From Acidobacteriota bacterium (lineage in GTDB: Bacteria > Acidobacteriota > Vicinamibacteria > Vicinamibacterales > UBA8438): a DNA stretch of 44,746 nt. The position numbers and the translations under genes are program-made. Below are positions 16,868 to 42,335 of this stretch, in pieces. The stretch lies in NCBI GenBank assembly GCA_002726085.1, contig PBRZ01000067.1:1-44746 (forward strand). The letters run 5' to 3'. The first letter of the stretch is position 1; every line of letters begins with the position of its first letter. The notes under the pieces were generated by a model. That model worked only from the letters and a program-made list of their open reading frames with translations. It ran no database searches and was not told where the DNA came from.

Positions 16868-16895
16868 TGAGAAACGGCTGCCCGATATAATCCAA
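16868..16895 (+). promoter_or_regulatory. Conserved 28-base promoter element, copy 1 (leaderless start of DUF4159 gene)
   Basis: The element ends in CCCGATATAATCCAA, with TATAAT at 16886-16891. It matches the elements at 24133-24160 and 30240-30267 in about 24 of 28 positions. The ATG of the DUF4159 gene (16899) begins seven bases after the hexamer, where transcription should start, so the transcript would be leaderless. Unlike the other two copies it has no tRNA-like sequence beside it. There is no TTGACA-like -35 box, so recognition probably relies on the extended -10. Confidence 0.65.
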
Positions 16896-22351: not shown

Positions 22352-22554
22352 CGAACAACTCCTTCCGCGTCAAGTGACGCGCTGCCCGCGTAAGGTCCTT
22401 TGCATTACGGGGGGCTGCGAACAAGAATCTTACACCCCAACAGGCGCGAGACTCGCCCCGGCCTTGACCTCGACCCTCAGTGGGGGCATTCTCGGCACGA
22501 CGGGTTCGATTGGGGCGGTCATCCTGATTGCTCCGTGCTCTTGAGAGGTTCTTG

Positions 22555-23925
22555 ATGAGACGACTTCATGTGCTGGCGTTTGGGCTGGCCCTGACCCTGA
22601 CTGGTTGTGGAGAGAGCGCGGCGCCTGTCGTCGAGCCCGGCGGACTGGCGCTCGTCGGGGGACAGCTGATAGACGGGACTGGTGCCGCGCCTGTTGCGGA
22701 TTCGGTCGTCGTGATCCGTGATGGACGGATAGCGAGGGCCGGATCCCGGGGTGCCACTGCTGTTCCCGCCGGAGCCGAGGTGATTGACGTCACCGGCAAG
22801 ACCATCATTCCCGGTCTGGTGAACCTGCACGTGCACTATCGCGAGGGACCGGAGGAAATCCAGCGTCAATTCCAGTCGCAGCTCTACTACGGTGTGACCA
22901 CCGCTCGGAGCATCGGCAGTGACTCACCCGAGCGAGTCGCGTTCCTGCTGGAGGCCAATGCCGGTCGACCCGACTTCCCCCGGGCCTACACCGCGGGCCT
23001 GGGATTCTCACGTCCCGGCGGATTCAACGCCGCCGGTCGGAATGCCCCCGAGACCGAAGAGGAAGCGCGGGCGCTGGTGCGGGACCAGATCGCGCTGGGC
23101 GTGCATTTCATCAAGATGTGGGTCAACGCGGTCCCGGAGCCAGGCCTGAAGATCGTCCCCGAGATCCGGACCGCCATCATCGACGAAGCGATCCAGAACG
23201 GCGCCATCCCGGTTGCCCACATCGATGACGAAGTCGATGGTCGCCAGCTGGTCGAGGCTGGTTTGCGGGACTTGCTACACAGCACCGTGTTGACCTTCGG
23301 TCCCGGAGCCGGTGTGCCGGTCGACGATCCCGACCCGTCGCAGGAATTCATCCAGATGTGCCTCGACAACGGCGTGTCGTTCACCCCTACGCTGTCGATC
23401 GTCCAAGGCAACTGGCACTTCGCCGAGCATCCGGAGCTGCTGGATGACCCGGCGTTGCGTGCCGCGTTCGACACCTACAATCCAGATGCGCTGGCCGGAT
23501 GGGACGACCCGGCACGCAGGGCGGGCGTGGTCGACGCGCCGGGATTCGAGGACCGCAAGGCCGCGTTCCGACAGGTGCAGGACTTCGTCAAGACGATGCA
23601 CGACGCCGGGGTCAAGATCGCGCTGGGGAATGATGCCGGGACCCCGAACGTGCCGTTCGGCTGGGGCATGCACCACGAGATGGAGCTGTATGTCGAGGCC
23701 GGTCTGACCCCGATGGATGCGATCGTCGCGGCCACGGCGACCGGCGCCGGGCAGATGCCTCCGGTGGGTGAGGCTGACTTCGGGACACTCGAGGCCGGCA
23801 AGGTCGCCGATCTTCTCGTGCTCAATGCCGATCCCCTGGTCGACATCCGGAACACGTTGGACATTGACCAGGTCATGCGGCTCGGCGAGTGGGTCGAGCG
23901 TGGGGGGGTGCTGTCAACTCCCTAG
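22555..23925 (+). CDS. Amidohydrolase family lipoprotein (imidazolonepropionase-like)
   Basis: A metal-dependent hydrolase of 456 residues. The ATG at 22555 follows GAGAGG and gives a lipoprotein signal ending LTGC (Cys18). The amidohydrolase barrel is complete: N-terminal beta-sandwich (LVGGQLIDGTGAAPVADSVV), metal ligands HVH in PGLVNLHVHYREG, GVTTARS, the lysine in HFIKMWVNA, histidines in PVAHIDDEVDG and DLLHSTVL, and the aspartate in KIALGNDAGTPNVPFG. The C-terminal AGKVADLLVLNADPLVDI closes the sandwich. Such exported members act on cyclic amides, dipeptides (prolidase-like) or lactams. The substrate here is not determined. It is monocistronic, divergent from the unknown exported gene. 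Confidence 0.9.
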   Translation: MRRLHVLAFGLALTLTGCGESAAPVVEPGGLALVGGQLIDGTGAAPVADSVVVIRDGRIARAGSRGATAVPAGAEVIDVTGKTIIPGLVNLHVHYREGPEEIQRQFQSQLYYGVTTARSIGSDSPERVAFLLEANAGRPDFPRAYTAGLGFSRPGGFNAAGRNAPETEEEARALVRDQIALGVHFIKMWVNAVPEPGLKIVPEIRTAIIDEAIQNGAIPVAHIDDEVDGRQLVEAGLRDLLHSTVLTFGPGAGVPVDDPDPSQEFIQMCLDNGVSFTPTLSIVQGNWHFAEHPELLDDPALRAAFDTYNPDALAGWDDPARRAGVVDAPGFEDRKAAFRQVQDFVKTMHDAGVKIALGNDAGTPNVPFGWGMHHEMELYVEAGLTPMDAIVAATATGAGQMPPVGEADFGTLEAGKVADLLVLNADPLVDIRNTLDIDQVMRLGEWVERGGVLSTP

Positions 23926-24062
23926 TCGATGGCGCACACGCTGACGAGCTCGAACACGAACGGGTTGACGGCACGCCGGCTGGGGACGCGATCTACGGGT
24001 CCGTGGCGGAGCGGGGGACGTCAGAACAGGCGATCGCGGCAATCACGATGAGCCAACAGGAA

Positions 24063-24143
24063 TGGGCCGGAGGTGGGGGTCGAACCCACACGAAGCGTAA
24101 GCTCCACGGGATCTTGAGTCCTCCGCGGGCGCTGAGAACCGGC
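24063..24143 (-). tRNA. tRNA-Leu(CAA)-like element, copy A, probably degenerate
   Basis: On the minus strand the 3' half is a good tRNA-Leu: a loop CTCAAGA with anticodon CAA (24114-24116), a long variable arm (GGAGC paired with GCTTC), a T-arm with a perfect GTGGG/CCCAC stem and loop TTCGACC (24073-24089), an acceptor strand CTCCGGC, and CCA. The discriminator base is missing before CCA. The 5' half has GCCGG, which can pair with the acceptor, but no canonical D-arm, and the anticodon stem has only three pairs. Probably a pseudogene or tRNA-derived repeat. Homology with copy B continues past its 5' end through the promoter element to about 24199. Confidence 0.5.
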
Positions 24144-24160
24144 CTGCCGATATAATCCAA
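24133..24160 (+). promoter_or_regulatory. Conserved 28-base promoter element, copy 2
   Basis: TATAAT at 24151-24156 in the context CTGCCGATATAATCCAA, identical in 27 of 28 positions to the element at 30240-30267. It overlaps the 5' end of the antisense tRNA-like copy A and points toward the SMP-30-like gene. The predicted start near 24163 gives a leader of about 130 bases with a CCCTC/GAGGG hairpin at 24164-24180. Confidence 0.65.
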
Positions 24161-24241
24161 CGACCCTCGCAAGTAGAGGGCTATCAGTCCCGGTACCGGC
24201 CTCGGGCACCAACCGTCACCTCGCTCCTTGGGGAGGGCGGC

Positions 24242-26439: not shown

Positions 26440-28025
26440 AGAATCTCTTGCTCCTGTTCAGCGTGCTCAGCGTGGCGGCACCCGTGGCTGCCCAGGTGCC
26501 CTACGAACGCATCCTGGACGCGGCGGCCGAGCCCGGAAGCTGGTTGACCTACTCTGGATCCTACGGAGCCCAGCGCTACTCGACGCTGGACCGGATCAAC
26601 CGCGACACCGTCAGTGGGCTGCAGCCTGCGTGGATCTACCAGGCCCGATCGCTGCAGAAGTTCGAGGTGTCTCCGCTCGTCGTCGACGGCGTTATGTACA
26701 TCACCGAGGCGCCGAGCGATGCGACCGCGCTCGACTTGCGCACGGGACGTCCGCTGTGGAGCTACCGTCGTGCGCTACCCCCGGGCATCGTGACCTGTTG
26801 CGGACAGGTGAATCGTGGCGTGGCGCTGCTGGACGGCCAGGTCTTTCTCGGCACGGTCGATGCGCATCTGGTCGCGCTCGACGCCAGGACCGGCCGCGTG
26901 CGCTGGGACGTCGAGGTCGCCGACTACGCGATGGGGTACTCGGTGACCGTGGCGCCGCTCGCGCTGAAGGACAAGATCATCGTTGGCATCTCCGGCGGCG
27001 AATACGGCATCCGGGGTTTTCTCGACGCCTATGATCCCGTCACCGGCGAGCGGCTCTGGCGCTTCTGGACCGTACCCGGACCGGGCGAACCGGGTCATGA
27101 CACGTGGTCGGGAGACAGCTGGGAGCGGGGTGGGGCGCCGACCTGGGTGACCGGCGCCTACGATCCGGAGCTCGACCTGTTGTACTGGGGCACCGGCAAC
27201 CCGGGCCCGGACTTCATCGGCGAGGTTCGCGAGGGCGACAACCTGTATTCCGAATCGCTGATCGCACTCGACCCCGACACGGGAGAGCTGCAGTGGTATT
27301 TTCAGTTCCTTCCGCACGACATCCATGACTACGACTCGACTCAGGTCCCGGTGCTCCTCGACGCCGAGTTCGAGGGCGAGCCGAGGAAGCTCGTTGTCTT
27401 CCCGAATCGGAACGGCTTCTACTACGTGCTCGACCGGGTCACGGGTGAATTCCTGGTGGGAACGCCGTTCGCCAGGCAGACCTGGGCCAGGGGGTTGGAC
27501 GAAGACGGCCGACCCATTGAGGCCCCAGAGACGATTCCGAGTCAGGACGGCGCCGTGGTCTATCCAGACGACGATGGAGCCGCCAACTGGTATAGCCCGA
27601 CGTACAGTCCGCAGACCAATCTCATCTATCAGAATGTGCGGGAGAAGGGCGGCGTCTACTACCTTGCTGATGCGACCTACGAGCCGGGCAAGATCTACAT
27701 GGGCGCCAGCCGGCGGGTCGTCTCGGGGGAAGACCCCAAGGGCTTCCTGCGTGCCCTGCACCCCCTGACCGGCGATCTCGTCTGGGAGGTCGCGGTGCAC
27801 TCGCCACCCTGGGCCGGGCTCATGTCGACCGCGGGCGGATTGGTGTTCTCGGGGACGATGGAGGGCGACTTCTTTGCGGCAGACGCGCGAACGGGGGACG
27901 TGCTCTGGAGGTTTCAGACGGGTGGCGCGATCTACGCGAACCCGATCACCTATCTCAGCGAGGGCCGGCAGTTCATCGCCATCGCCGCGGGAAACGCCCT
28001 CATGACGTTCGCGCTGCCCGAGTGA
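26436..28025 (+). CDS. PQQ-dependent alcohol dehydrogenase (quinoprotein)
   Basis: A 529-residue periplasmic quinoprotein dehydrogenase with signal peptide LLLLFSVLSVAAPVAAQ. The eight-bladed propeller signatures are clear: WLTYSGSYGAQRYSTLDRIN, vicinal cysteines C121-C122 (TCCGQ) that form the disulfide above PQQ, GGEYGIRGFLDAYDPVTGE, YWGTGNPGPDF, and repeated W-motifs such as LHPLTGDLVWE. The catalytic region HDIHDYDS has Asp298 followed two residues later by Asp300. That D-x-D arrangement marks lanthanide-dependent enzymes (XoxF/ExaF type) rather than calcium types, by analogy. It is translationally coupled to the cytochrome c gene. The substrate is probably an alcohol, not identified. Confidence 0.9.
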   Translation: MKNLLLLFSVLSVAAPVAAQVPYERILDAAAEPGSWLTYSGSYGAQRYSTLDRINRDTVSGLQPAWIYQARSLQKFEVSPLVVDGVMYITEAPSDATALDLRTGRPLWSYRRALPPGIVTCCGQVNRGVALLDGQVFLGTVDAHLVALDARTGRVRWDVEVADYAMGYSVTVAPLALKDKIIVGISGGEYGIRGFLDAYDPVTGERLWRFWTVPGPGEPGHDTWSGDSWERGGAPTWVTGAYDPELDLLYWGTGNPGPDFIGEVREGDNLYSESLIALDPDTGELQWYFQFLPHDIHDYDSTQVPVLLDAEFEGEPRKLVVFPNRNGFYYVLDRVTGEFLVGTPFARQTWARGLDEDGRPIEAPETIPSQDGAVVYPDDDGAANWYSPTYSPQTNLIYQNVREKGGVYYLADATYEPGKIYMGASRRVVSGEDPKGFLRALHPLTGDLVWEVAVHSPPWAGLMSTAGGLVFSGTMEGDFFAADARTGDVLWRFQTGGAIYANPITYLSEGRQFIAIAAGNALMTFALPE

Positions 28026-30131: not shown

Positions 30132-30165
30132 GCGATCGCGCTGATCGCGAGTGACTCAATGAAAA

Positions 30166-30250
30166 TGGTGCCGGGGGTGGGGGTCGAACCCACACGGAGC
30201 GTAAGCTCCACGGGATTTTGAGTCCTCCGCCCTCGGCGCAGAGAACCGGC
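30166..30250 (-). tRNA. tRNA-Leu(CAA)-like element, copy B
   Basis: On the minus strand this 85-base element has the length of a tRNA-Leu and an intact 3' half: loop CTCAAAA with anticodon CAA (30218-30220), a long variable arm with a perfect GGAGC/GCTCC stem, a T-arm with perfect GTGGG/CCCAC and loop TTCGACC (30177-30193), acceptor strand CCCCGGC, discriminator A and encoded CCA. The 5' end GCCGGTT pairs with the acceptor at only five of seven positions. The anticodon stem has three pairs, and the D-arm lacks the conserved T8, A14 and GG. It may be a decayed tRNA or a tRNA-like regulatory structure. It shares about 140 bases with copy A. Confidence 0.5.
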
Positions 30251-30267
30251 CTGCCGATATAATCCAA
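30240..30267 (+). promoter_or_regulatory. Conserved 28-base promoter element, copy 3
   Basis: TATAAT at 30258-30263 in CTGCCGATATAATCCAA, nearly identical to the element at 24133-24160. It overlaps the 5' end of the antisense tRNA-like copy B and points to the S1-domain gene, giving a leader of about 80 bases. No -35 consensus is seen. Confidence 0.65.
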
Positions 30268-30348
30268 CCACGCTCCAAAGATATGGTGCTCAGTTCCCGG
30301 CACCCGCCTCGGGCACTACGACGTCACTGCCCTCAATTGAGCTCAAAT

Positions 30349-31794
30349 ATGTCGCCCGATGACGAAGCACCCCCGCAGCCAGTCGAGGAAGAAGACTTCG
30401 CCGCGCTGTTTGCGGCGTCGCTCGAGCCCGCCGTGTTCGAGACAGGACAGCTGGTCCAGGGCGTCGTCGTCTTGATCGGTAGAGACGTCGTGTTTGTCGA
30501 TGTCGGCGGAAAAGGCGAGGCGACGATGGACCTCGTAGAGCTTCAGGGCGAAGACGGCCAGCTGACCGTCGAGGTCGGCGCCACCGTCGAGGCAGTGGTC
30601 GTCTCGACCTCCGGCGGGGTCACGCTGTCACACAAACTGGCACGGGGTGCCGCGACGCGGCGACAGTTAGAGGACGCCTATCGCGCCGAGTTGCCGGTGG
30701 AGGGCCGCGTCGAGAAGGCCAACAAAGGGGGCTACGAGGTCAGCGTCGGCGGGCAACGCGCCTTCTGCCCCATCTCGCAGATCGACACCGGATTCACCTC
30801 CGATCCGGAGGTGCACGTAGGCCAGCTCTACACCTTCCGGATCATTGAGTATAAAGAGGAAGGCAAGGACCTCGTCATCTCGCGACGCGCGTTGATCGAA
30901 GAAGAAGAACGCGAGCAGGAGGTCGAGGTTCGCAAGACGATCGTCCCCGGCGCCGACCTTCCTGGTCGAATCGCATCGGTACGGCCGTACGGCGCCTTCG
31001 TCGATCTCGGGGGCGGCATTCAGGGATTACTGCACGTGTCCGAGATGGGCTGGTCGCGAGTGTCGGACCCGACCACGGTGGTCCAACCTGGCGACTCCGT
31101 CACCGTTCGAGTCCTTGGTGTCGATGACGAGAAGGGCAAGATCTCACTCGGGATGAAGCAGCTGCAGACCGACCCGTGGGACGCGGTCGGCCAGTCCTAC
31201 GCCAGCGGGCACCGTCTGACCGGGACCGTGACCCGCGTTCTCGAATTCGGCGCCTTCATCGAATTGCAGCCAGGCATCGAGGCGCTCGCGCATCTCTCGA
31301 CCTTTCCGCCGTCCGGGAAGCGGGACGGCTGGAAAGACACCGTCACCGTCGGCGCGACGGTCGCGGTCGAGATTCTCACCGTGGACCGCGAAAAGAAGCG
31401 GATCGGTGTAGCCGTGATCGAGAAAGACTCGGCGCGGGTCCTGACGATCGAAGCGGGTGCACAGTTGACGGGCACAGTCGAACGCCACGAGCGGTACGGC
31501 GTGTTCGTCTTCCTGAGTCCGGGGCGTACCGGGTTGATGCCCAACGAAGAGACGGACACCGCCTACGGCACCGATCTGAAACAGGCGTTCCCGGTCGGCA
31601 GCGACATCGAGGTTGTTGTTCTCGACGTCGATCCCGAAAGCCATCGGATTCGTCTGAGCCGCAAAGCGATTCGCGAAGTCGAAGAGAACAACGACGCTCG
31701 TGCCTACTCCAAGCGGCAGAGCGAGGGGCCAGAAGCGAGCTTCGGCTCGATGGCCGACAAGCTTCGCGCGGCGTTTCGCCCAGCGGACGAATGA
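30349..31794 (+). CDS. S1 RNA-binding domain protein (ribosomal protein S1-like)
   Basis: A 481-residue cytoplasmic protein built of consecutive S1/OB domains, four to five in number: VQGVVVLIGRDVVFVDVGGKGE, VEGRVEKANKGGYEVSVGGQ, PGRIASVRPYGAFVDLGGGIQGLLHVSEM, LTGTVTRVLEFGAFIELQPGIEALAHLS (in part), and a final VERHERYGVFVFL unit. Motifs such as KGKISLGMKQLQTDPW are typical of S1. ATG 30349 is chosen because the protein begins with an acidic leader (DDEAPPQPVEEEDF) as in other S1 proteins. The Shine-Dalgarno is weak, which is common for rpsA. It is probably a second or variant S1-like protein involved in mRNA binding; whether it is the main S1 cannot be told. Confidence 0.85.
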   Translation: MSPDDEAPPQPVEEEDFAALFAASLEPAVFETGQLVQGVVVLIGRDVVFVDVGGKGEATMDLVELQGEDGQLTVEVGATVEAVVVSTSGGVTLSHKLARGAATRRQLEDAYRAELPVEGRVEKANKGGYEVSVGGQRAFCPISQIDTGFTSDPEVHVGQLYTFRIIEYKEEGKDLVISRRALIEEEEREQEVEVRKTIVPGADLPGRIASVRPYGAFVDLGGGIQGLLHVSEMGWSRVSDPTTVVQPGDSVTVRVLGVDDEKGKISLGMKQLQTDPWDAVGQSYASGHRLTGTVTRVLEFGAFIELQPGIEALAHLSTFPPSGKRDGWKDTVTVGATVAVEILTVDREKKRIGVAVIEKDSARVLTIEAGAQLTGTVERHERYGVFVFLSPGRTGLMPNEETDTAYGTDLKQAFPVGSDIEVVVLDVDPESHRIRLSRKAIREVEENNDARAYSKRQSEGPEASFGSMADKLRAAFRPADE

Positions 31795-31814
31795 CTGCCG
31801 AGGGCGTGCCTCTT

Positions 31815-33181: not shown

Positions 33182-33355
33182 ACCGCAGTGCCCGCGACAA
33201 GGTGCCGGGCTTGCTCGACCGGGGGTTGCTTGCCGGGGCAGTCGCGGTGCCTTGGCAGGAGCCGGACGCGGCGTTGAGGGGGCACGTATCCGCTATCGTC
33301 ATGACACTGGCGATTCGGCGGTCATCCAACCGAGTCCGTAACTTGCTGAAGAGAA

Positions 33356-33425
33356 TGGTGCCGGAGGTGGGGGTCGAACCCACACGCTCCACCGGATCTT
33401 GAGTGCGGTTGCGCCTTGACGAATC
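33356..33425 (-). pseudogene. tRNA-Leu(CAA) fragment, copy C
   Basis: On the minus strand this has encoded CCA (33356-33358), discriminator A, acceptor strand CTCCGGC, the same perfect T-arm (33367-33383), and an anticodon arm CCGCA-CTCAAGA-TCCGG with one mismatch (33392-33408). The variable arm is shortened to a few bases, and the D-arm and 5' acceptor are missing. It differs from copies A and B upstream and has no promoter element beside it. It may mark the attachment site of a lost or eroded island, since the next 2.2 kb holds unusual DNA and an integrase tail. Confidence 0.6.
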
Positions 33426-35448: not shown

Positions 35449-35542
35449 GTAGATAACTTGGCAATACAAAGTAACCACCGTCAAGCAGAATCTCGCAGCC
35501 GACAACGGGCGGGCAAGACGCTACCCTGTGGCAGGTGGCCAG

Positions 35543-35671
35543 GCGTGCCCGTTGCACGAGATCCAGAGCTTGATGGGACACGCATCGCTGACGACGACTC
35601 AGCGGTATCTCAATGCCACGGTCGAGTCGCTAGAGGAATCCGTGAAGGTCCTGGAGCAGCAGGTTGGCTGA
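35543..35671 (+). pseudogene. Tyrosine recombinase (integrase) C-terminal tail
   Basis: An in-frame stretch of about 43 codons ends at TGA 35669-35671 and reads CPLHEIQSLMGHASLTTTQR then YLNATVESLEESV. This is the end of a phage-type integrase, with the conserved H in LMGHAS and the catalytic Tyr in TTQRY. The upstream catalytic domain (Arg, His-x-x-Arg) is not present, and no start codon or ribosome binding site fits. It is a remnant of a mobile element. The remaining 35449-35542 and 35672-35765 show nothing else. Confidence 0.75.
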
Positions 35672-35765
35672 CTTCCGGTCATCCTGCTGTCATTCACCGG
35701 AACTCGCCTCGGTTCTGAATCGACCACCCGACAATGAACACACGGATATCTGCTATGGTCTCGTC

Positions 35766-37403
35766 ATGACCCAACGCCTGTTCCTCCCAATGGTGTTCCT
35801 GGTGATCGGTGCGCTCGCAGCCGCGCCGCACGCGCAAACACCGACGGCTGAGACGCGACCGTTTACCCCGGTGTCGGCCGCGCGGCTGCTCAACGCCGAG
35901 GACGAGCCGCACAACTGGCTGATGTACTCGGGCGACTACAAGAGCCAGCGCTACAGCGGGCTCGACCAGATTGACCGGGGCAACGTCGCGGATCTGCAGA
36001 TTCAGTGGGTCCACCAGCTCAGCGTGCTCGACCAGGCCGAGACGACGCCGCTCGTGGTGGATGGCGTGATGTACATCACCGAGTCGCCCAGCACGGTCAT
36101 CGCGGTCGAGGCGGCGACCGGCCGGCCCTACTGGCGATACGAGCATCCGCTGCCCGACGACATGGTCTTCTGCTGTGGGCGGAACAACCGGGGCGTGGCC
36201 GTCCAGGGCGACCACATCATCATGAGCACGCTCGACGCTCATTTGGTGGCGCTCGATCCGAAGACCGGAAGCGTGGTGTGGGAGACGGAAACCCAGGAGA
36301 CCAGCTCGGGCTACAGCAAGACGGCCGCGCCGCTAATCGTCGGTGACAAGGTGTTCAGCGGGGTGGCCGGTGGCGAGTACGGAATTCGCGGGTTCGTGGA
36401 CGCCTACAACATCAACACCGGCGAGCGTGAGTGGCGGTTCTTCACGACACCCGGCCCCGACAACCCGGACAGCCAGACCTGGTCTGGCGACTCGTGGCGC
36501 CGGGGCGGATCGGCCACCTGGATGACCGGCTCCTACGACCCGGAGCTGAACCTGGTCTACTGGGGCACCGGGAACCCGGGGCCGGACTACGACGGCACCG
36601 TGCGCATGGGCGATAACCTCTACTCCGACTCGGTAGTCGCGCTCGACGCTGACACCGGCGAGATGAAGTGGTATTTCCAGTTCACTCCGCACGACATTCA
36701 CGACTGGGACGCGACGCAGATTCCGATTCTCGCCGACACGACGTTCAACGGCGAGCAACGGAAGTTGATGCTCTTTCCGAACCGGAATGCCTTCTTCTAC
36801 GTGCTGGACCGCGAGACCGGCGAGTTCCTGCTCGGCACGCCCTACGCGAAGCAGACCTGGGCCGACGGACTCGACTCGAACGGCCGGCCGATTCTCATCC
36901 CGGGCAAGGAGCCGTCCGAAGACGGCACCGTGGTGTCCCCCGCCATCACCGGCGGGTCCAACTGGTGGTCCCCGTCCTACAGCCCACGCACCGACCTGCT
37001 GTATGTGATGGCCTACGACGCCGAGACGCGGTACTACATCCGCAAGACCGCCTACGATGAGGGTGACAGCTATCGTGCCGGCGGCGGTGAGAGCCCCGAA
37101 TCACCCGAGGGGTATCACCGCGCAGTGCGCGCCCTCTCGCCCCAGACCGGCGAGCTGCGCTGGGAGTTTCCGGTCAATCCGCGGTCGACGTCCGGGTTGA
37201 TGTCGACGGCCGGTGATCTCGTCTTCGGCGGCACGGCCGACGGCTTCTTCTTCGCGCTTGATGCGGAGACCGGCGAAGAGCTCTGGCACAAGTCGGTCGG
37301 TGGGCGTGTCCACGCGGCGCCGATGGCCTATGCGGTCGACGGGAAGCAATACGTCACCATTGCGGCCGGCAACGCCATCTTCTCGTTCGCGCTCCCAGAC
37401 TGA
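35766..37403 (+). CDS. PQQ-dependent alcohol dehydrogenase, second copy
   Basis: A 545-residue periplasmic quinoprotein closely related to the one at 26436. ATG 35766 gives signal LPMVFLVIGALAAAPHAQ. Same signatures: WLMYSGDYKSQRYSGLDQID, C136-C137 (FCCGRNN), GGEYGIRGFVDAYNINTGE, YWGTGNPGPDYDG, and HDIHDWDATQ with Asp313 and Asp315 in the D-x-D arrangement that suggests a lanthanide rather than calcium. It ends KQYVTIAAGNAIFSFALPD. Unlike the first copy it has no cytochrome gene beside it, so it must pass electrons to a cytochrome encoded elsewhere. TATGGT six bases before the ATG may be a -10 box of a leaderless transcript. Confidence 0.9.
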   Translation: MTQRLFLPMVFLVIGALAAAPHAQTPTAETRPFTPVSAARLLNAEDEPHNWLMYSGDYKSQRYSGLDQIDRGNVADLQIQWVHQLSVLDQAETTPLVVDGVMYITESPSTVIAVEAATGRPYWRYEHPLPDDMVFCCGRNNRGVAVQGDHIIMSTLDAHLVALDPKTGSVVWETETQETSSGYSKTAAPLIVGDKVFSGVAGGEYGIRGFVDAYNINTGEREWRFFTTPGPDNPDSQTWSGDSWRRGGSATWMTGSYDPELNLVYWGTGNPGPDYDGTVRMGDNLYSDSVVALDADTGEMKWYFQFTPHDIHDWDATQIPILADTTFNGEQRKLMLFPNRNAFFYVLDRETGEFLLGTPYAKQTWADGLDSNGRPILIPGKEPSEDGTVVSPAITGGSNWWSPSYSPRTDLLYVMAYDAETRYYIRKTAYDEGDSYRAGGGESPESPEGYHRAVRALSPQTGELRWEFPVNPRSTSGLMSTAGDLVFGGTADGFFFALDAETGEELWHKSVGGRVHAAPMAYAVDGKQYVTIAAGNAIFSFALPD

Positions 37404-40711: not shown

Positions 40712-40879
40712 ATGGCTCTTGCCCCCGGCACCCGGTTGGGTCCCTATGAGGTCGCAACTCTTATTGGTGAGGGCGGCATGGGGGAGGTCTACCAGGCTCG
40801 AGACACCGAGCTCGGCCGGGACGTGGGTCTCAAAGTCTTGCCCGATGTCTTCACCAGCGATTCCGACCGCCTCGCGGCT
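40712..40879 (+). pseudogene. Ser/Thr kinase N-terminal stub 1
   Basis: ATG 40712 opens a frame reading LAPGTRLGPYEVATLIGEGG and MGEVYQARDTELGRDVGLKV, then LPDVFTSDSDRLAAF, the N-lobe of a PknB-type kinase with the glycine-rich loop and the AIKVLP-like strand. The usual catalytic lysine strand reads VGLKV, so the lysine is present. At codon 56 homology stops abruptly. The frame continues to 41011 through sequence that makes sense only on the other strand (peptidase fragment). Confidence 0.75.
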
Positions 40880-41041
40880 TTCGGTCCGGGAGGCGGTCAA
40901 GCACCTTGTCGCGGAACCGAGGGAACAACGTTCGTCGGACAGTACCGTGGCCACTACTTCGTACACGTCGTCGGTGCTCCGGAACAGCCGGCCGCTCGCG
41001 AACGTACGTAGATCGAGCCGGTCGATGAAGGGGCGGGTCAC
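40880..41041 (-). pseudogene. S9 (prolyl oligopeptidase) family fragment, antisense to kinase stub
   Basis: On the minus strand RPFIDRLDLRTFASGRLFR and STDDVYEVVATVLSDERCSL resemble a propeller blade segment of acidobacterial S9 peptidases (RPFLDRLDLKT...RLFRC...YE.VVALL-DD). The segment ends where the kinase stub begins, so the two were joined by a rearrangement near 40880. No N- or C-terminal parts are present. Confidence 0.5.
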
Positions 41042-42170: not shown

Positions 42171-42335
42171 GTGCCGCTTGATGCCGGTACGCAGCTCGGC
42201 CCGTACGAAATCCTCGCCGAAGTCGGCCACGGCGGCATGGGCGTCGTCTGCACGGTCCAGGACCCGCGCCTCGACCGCGGTGACGATCAGGGTCCTACCG
42301 CCCGAACTGACCCGGGACGAGACGGCCAAGCGTCG
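42171..42335 (+). pseudogene. Ser/Thr kinase N-terminal stub 3, frameshifted
   Basis: GTG 42171 opens LDAGTQLGPYEILAEVGHGG then MGVVCTVQDPRLDR, the kinase N-terminus. The continuation VTIRVLPPELTRDETAKR is in the next frame (around 42280), so an indel separates them. The usual lysine of AIKVLP is Arg here. Homology stops at about codon 55, the same point as stub 1, and runs into the two-copy repeat at 42332. Confidence 0.7.

Follow-up and report, generated by a model that had tools for sequence, protein, structure and literature searches.

Introduction

Displaced 3′ fragments of tRNA genes with a crossover in the anticodon loop are a common, catalogued product of genomic islands. In the Islander catalogue (PMC4383910), a 3′ fragment was recorded for 3760 of 3919 islands, and 2083 were anticodon-centred. 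Partial tRNA genes have also been ascribed to the attR sites of integrated elements and are expected to be pervasive in prokaryotes (PMC9897764). Copies A and B and fragment C, described here, are very probably a fresh example of this product. They lie in one window, the whole 44,746-nucleotide stretch that was analyzed (contig PBRZ01000067.1 of assembly GCA_002726085.1), from an acidobacterial genome of the order Vicinamibacterales.

These sequences resemble the displaced fragments of Islander in being 3′ fragments, in their break at the anticodon loop, in having the orientation of the tRNA and, as synteny would place them, its 3′ side, and in that an integrase, or what remains of one, adjoins the tRNA in relatives. 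They differ in that the putative islands have decayed, the window has no intact integrase, another contig carries the intact gene, and a dead kinase gene forms the flank on the island side. They are likewise of the same kind as the partial genes of PMC9897764, which stem from mobile-element integration and are mistaken for tRNA genes; those genes, however, surfaced through a tRNAscan-SE listing, whereas A and B were not called by ARAGORN.

Three tRNA-Leu(CAA) 3′ halves in the window

24061–24119, minus strand: tRNA part of copy A, bases 31–88 of tRNA-Leu(CAA), very probably a displaced 3′ half
30160–30223, minus strand: tRNA part of copy B, bases 31–88 of tRNA-Leu(CAA), very probably a displaced 3′ half
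33351–33404, minus strand: fragment C, very probably a third displaced 3′ half of tRNA-Leu(CAA), its variable arm shortened by a deletion

The initial annotation had described an antisense tRNA-Leu(CAA)-like sequence recurring within a unit of about 140 bases. The tRNA-derived sequence is real, repeated, and on the minus strand, and searches of the genome and the order exclude chance, with tRNA-Leu matches found both in this genome and in relatives. The repeat unit also stands, but it is longer than proposed: homology between A and B (E = 7.7e-39 in the genome search) covers 24030–24226 and 30132–30334, with 164 of 204 alignment columns identical. Fragment C, moreover, was missing from the earlier list of two copies.

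All three sequences correspond to the 3′ portion of a tRNA gene of which this genome also has an intact copy, located at a contig end elsewhere (C3:54794–54881), and each has the orientation of the tRNA. Identity to the intact gene is 93% for the tRNA part of copy A (55/59 columns; E = 1.3e-17), 97% for that of copy B (57/59 columns; E = 5.7e-23), and 47 of 57 columns for fragment C (tRNA positions 32–88; E = 3.4e-12). At the level of sequence, these alignments establish the origin of the fragments from the 3′ half of tRNA-Leu(CAA).

Read on the minus strand, A and B comprise the anticodon loop, variable arm, T-arm, and 3′ end of tRNA-Leu(CAA). The variable arm and T-arm noted earlier were recovered in both copies, and the reported clean CCA is present in B, which ends in CACCA, but lost from A, which ends in GGCCCA. 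The lack of a normal D-arm was correctly noted: the 5′ half of the tRNA is missing from the copies, leaving neither a D-arm nor a complete cloverleaf with an acceptor stem. Because this half is absent, ARAGORN called no tRNA gene at A or B. No Rfam family reached its threshold at either copy, and neither qualifies as a functional tRNA, which sets them apart from an ordinary tRNA gene; their tRNA part is now most likely without function.

At permissive thresholds, the best Rfam match was tRNA-Sec (24–25 bits versus a cut-off of 47), and the mycobacterial sRNA ncrMT1302 scored 16–18 bits versus a cut-off of 45; both were set aside. An intron-bearing or permuted tRNA was dropped from consideration, given that an intact tRNA-Leu(CAA) exists and that the 5′ flanks of the fragments are mostly unrelated to one another. 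What seems to be the 5′ acceptor partner in copy B is not tRNA sequence but kinase codons read in reverse complement (CCCGGCACC), so that its acceptor-strand appearance is a coincidence between these codons and the tRNA 3′ end. Elsewhere in the window, ARAGORN reported an undetermined 'tRNA-???' at 36858–36952, inside a PQQ-dehydrogenase gene and on the opposite strand, which is probably a false positive.

A dead kinase gene as the source of the promoter half

24120–24226, plus strand: kinase part of copy A, a promoter block (TATAAT at 24151–24156) and frameshifted first codons of a Ser/Thr kinase
30224–30334, plus strand: kinase part of copy B, a promoter block (TATAAT at 30258–30263) and the frameshifted first 17 kinase codons

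The TATAAT reported on the strand opposite the tRNA is present in both copies, on the plus strand within CTGCCGATATAATCCAA; the proposed overlap of the tRNA 5′ end with this promoter is not, as the stretch concerned is not tRNA sequence. When up to three mismatches are allowed, the genome contains 11 occurrences of CTGCCGATATAATCCAA and one of a reversed control; at contigs C76 and C1 the block stands immediately 5′ of Ser/Thr kinase genes starting MALNPGTRLGVYEVAAKIGEGGMGEVYQARD and MALSPGTQLGVYEVTAKIGEGGMG. A by-eye reading combined with alignments places ∼25 kinase codons in A and ∼17 in B on the 3′ side of the TATAAT, with a frameshift in each. When aligned with an intact kinase locus, 79 of 114 columns were identical for the kinase part of copy A, with the alignment extending to about 24247, and 65 of 88 for that of copy B.

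Since the same block and the same first codons are found at intact kinases, the promoter half represents the start of a kinase gene that is now dead. Its counterparts are the acidobacterial MALSPGTRLGVYEV-type Ser/Thr kinase genes, which share both the promoter block and the first codons with A and B, although in A and B only the promoter and 17–25 frameshifted codons survive. A scan for the sigma-70-type consensus found no consensus −35 box at a spacing of 16–18 nt from the TATAAT.

The kinase N-terminus has 51 matches in the genome, many in short broken frames and clustered in places (contigs C48, C14, C127, and C157). Two more Ser/Thr kinase 5′ ends occur in the window, at 40712–40882 and 42177–42278, both in short frames; one shares 79% identity with an intact kinase across 57 residues. 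A further TATAAT block, at 16869–16895, lies immediately 5′ of a DUF4159 gene (16899), and the block is therefore not restricted to kinase genes. An integron attC site, suggested by the GTTRRRY-like GTTGGAT, was dropped because the stretch is kinase promoter.

A common break point and integrases at tRNA-Leu in relatives

Fourteen tRNA-Leu fragments from this genome and its relatives share one break on the 5′ side of the anticodon loop. They match the intact gene at 92% on average across the 16 nt on the 3′ side of this break and at 29% across the 31 nt on its 5′ side; seven intact genes reach 99% and 99.5% in these two intervals. The 5′ flanks mostly differ, and most of the fragments adjoin unrelated DNA; three of the flanks, in genomes G009 and G002, have a common end sequence. 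In G010, G028, and G080, an intact tRNA-Leu is followed downstream by a fragment on the same strand, at a distance of 8.1, 3.2, and 2.4 kb, respectively. Genome G092 carries two related units, each an element end joined to a tRNA half, 5.0 kb apart and identical in 343 of 453 columns, and this pair is an independent parallel to A and B. Gene pairs encoding DUF433 (assigned by eye) and DUF5615 (Pfam-confirmed), which resemble toxin–antitoxin modules, adjoin tRNA-Leu fragments in two families (L079 in G028, 2286–2811; L156 in G002, 1395–2030).

A tyrosine integrase adjoins the 3′ end of tRNA-Leu(CAA) in several relatives: it is Pfam-confirmed in G043 and G012 and represented by shorter frames, taken as relics, in G022 and G041, and in G080 a relic lies between the tRNA and the fragment. 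The G043 locus (L192, 264–4435), where a full tyrosine integrase stands next to tRNA-Leu(CAA) and the neighboring frames look phage-like by eye, is a candidate intact island at this tRNA gene.

Synteny ties the window to the tRNA-Leu locus of G022 through three features.

22528–23925, plus strand: amidohydrolase gene to the left of copy A (Pfam Amidohydro_1), the synteny anchor with the G022 tRNA-Leu locus
30349–31794, plus strand: S1-domain gene downstream of copy B (Pfam S1), syntenic with the G022 tRNA-Leu locus
35540–35668, plus strand: relic of a tyrosine integrase C-terminus, matching the G022 relic that adjoins tRNA-Leu(CAA)

The order in G022 is amidohydrolase, S1-domain gene, integrase relic, and tRNA-Leu(CAA) on the minus strand, and the first three follow in the same order in the window. 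DNA identity to G022 is 82% for the amidohydrolase (23438–23927) and 90% for the S1-domain gene (30347–31798). The integrase relic, which was detected only with the G022 integrase protein as query, matches its G022 counterpart at 79% over 43 residues and 83% over 145 bases of DNA (35549–35693); a search of the whole genome for the integrase family found no intact copy on this contig. This synteny would put A, B, and C on the 3′ side of the tRNA, with the intact gene itself on contig C3, whose tRNA upstream stretch is shared with G010 (74% over 1.6 kb). On the simplest reading of these sequences, the end of C3 and the window would be the two sides of one old tRNA-Leu locus between which islands accreted. 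Two PQQ-dehydrogenase genes 9.4 kb apart (26970–27269 and 36345–36644; 71% DNA identity over 300 bases) flank copy B and fragment C.

Probable island integration scars and alternative explanations

The common break point, the integrases at tRNA-Leu(CAA) in relatives, and the synteny with G022 all point to displaced attachment-site fragments. Very probably, A, B, and C are 3′ halves of tRNA-Leu(CAA) displaced by serial tyrosine-integrase islands. The flank of A and B is a decayed kinase gene. Islands would have inserted successively at the anticodon loop of tRNA-Leu(CAA), in a number and order that we infer; every island would have supplied its own tRNA 3′ half, restoring the gene, and each new one would have displaced the older half outwards. 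The kinase gene would have been island cargo, its promoter and first codons forming the island side of the break in A and B. Several observations count against this reading: the window has no intact integrase, the intact tRNA lies on C3, so that tRNA, island, and scar are not found in one piece, and a check of gene content found no genes recognizable as belonging to a mobile element in the DNA between A, B, and C.

The kinase flank common to both also counts against it, since A and B are then not independent insertions into naive DNA and one of them could stem from the other through a local duplication. A single island insertion may thus have created the junction of tRNA half and kinase, with the second copy arising by local segmental duplication or recombination, a course of events that we regard as possible rather than probable. 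It would account for the bases that A and B share and tRNA-Leu lacks (ACGCT in the variable arm), for the kinase flank, and for ∼28 shared bases past the tRNA end, a flank whose score was reached in 9 of 1000 shuffles. It fits less well with the kinase stretch being longer in A than in B and with surroundings that share nothing outside the ∼200-base unit. Under it, one copy would have a different history, but the scar would be no different in kind.

That the same fused unit occurs twice, before unrelated genes, had led to the proposal of a mobile tRNA-derived module carrying a promoter. The link to mobile DNA and the promoter-like block hold up; the unit as a mobile module does not. A search of 162 genomes of the order located the tRNA/promoter junction at A and B, on the same contig, and nowhere else; none of the other 161 genomes had the whole fused unit. 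A junction restricted to two sites argues against a spreading module. Both halves also occur apart: relatives have the tRNA 3′ half next to other sequences, and the promoter block lies before kinase genes, where it runs into kinase codons as it does in A and B. Both copies are, moreover, tRNA-oriented and, by synteny, on the tRNA 3′ side. We therefore consider a small SINE- or MITE-like module with its own promoter, copied to two sites, highly improbable. A junction pattern scan of named public genomes gave seven matches in scattered taxa, which we took as chance.

Least probable of all is a tRNA-like RNA with a regulatory job, such as a decoy or a 5′ leader structure: nothing was found in support of this earlier suggestion beyond the well-kept variable arm and T-arm of B (97% identity to the gene), while the 5′ half and D-arm are missing, no tRNA is called, Rfam scores are far under threshold, the clean CCA is lost in A and part of the variable arm in C, the TATAAT is directed away from the tRNA part, and the fusion is not conserved in relatives.

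A relic promoter in front of an S1-domain gene

The promoter block of copy B lies in front of the S1-domain gene, whose protein has 89% identity in G022 and G010 and whose similarity to relatives starts at the ATG (30349). From its position, this block probably drives the S1-domain gene. The S1 gene of G012 is preceded by the same kinase relic, with the same junction and without a tRNA half; the relic promoter can thus stand at S1 independently of the tRNA scar, and it is probably the older of the two. The S1 gene of G010, G017, and G001 instead follows the end of another frame, PQQ-type dehydrogenase-like by eye.

Kinase genes near tRNA-Leu fragments

Kinase starts also lie near tRNA-Leu fragments in relatives, at ∼0.28 and 0.9 kb in G002 (contigs C96 and C93) and ∼0.15 kb in G082, each in the divergent orientation seen in A and B. 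From the kinase density of this genome only, the expected number of kinase starts so oriented within 1 kb is about 0.005 per fragment. As the G002 C93 locus was fetched for its kinase match, only two of the three cases are unbiased, and the association of kinase genes with tRNA-Leu fragments is suggestive. It is conceivable, though unlikely, that tRNA-Leu(CAA) islands in this order regularly carry an inward-reading kinase gene by their far attachment end, whose promoter outlives decay and serves the next gene, the S1-domain gene being a case in point.

Implications

A known process very probably explains the odd fused unit. The scar at A and B is of an ordinary genomic kind with a mild twist, in that the promoter of a dead gene now stands before another gene. 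The analysis also points to repeated insertion on the 3′ side of tRNA-Leu(CAA) in an acidobacterial order that has received little study, and it offers a testable case of a promoter from a dead, putatively mobile gene placed before an S1-domain gene, for which G012 has an ortholog with the same relic promoter and without the tRNA scar.
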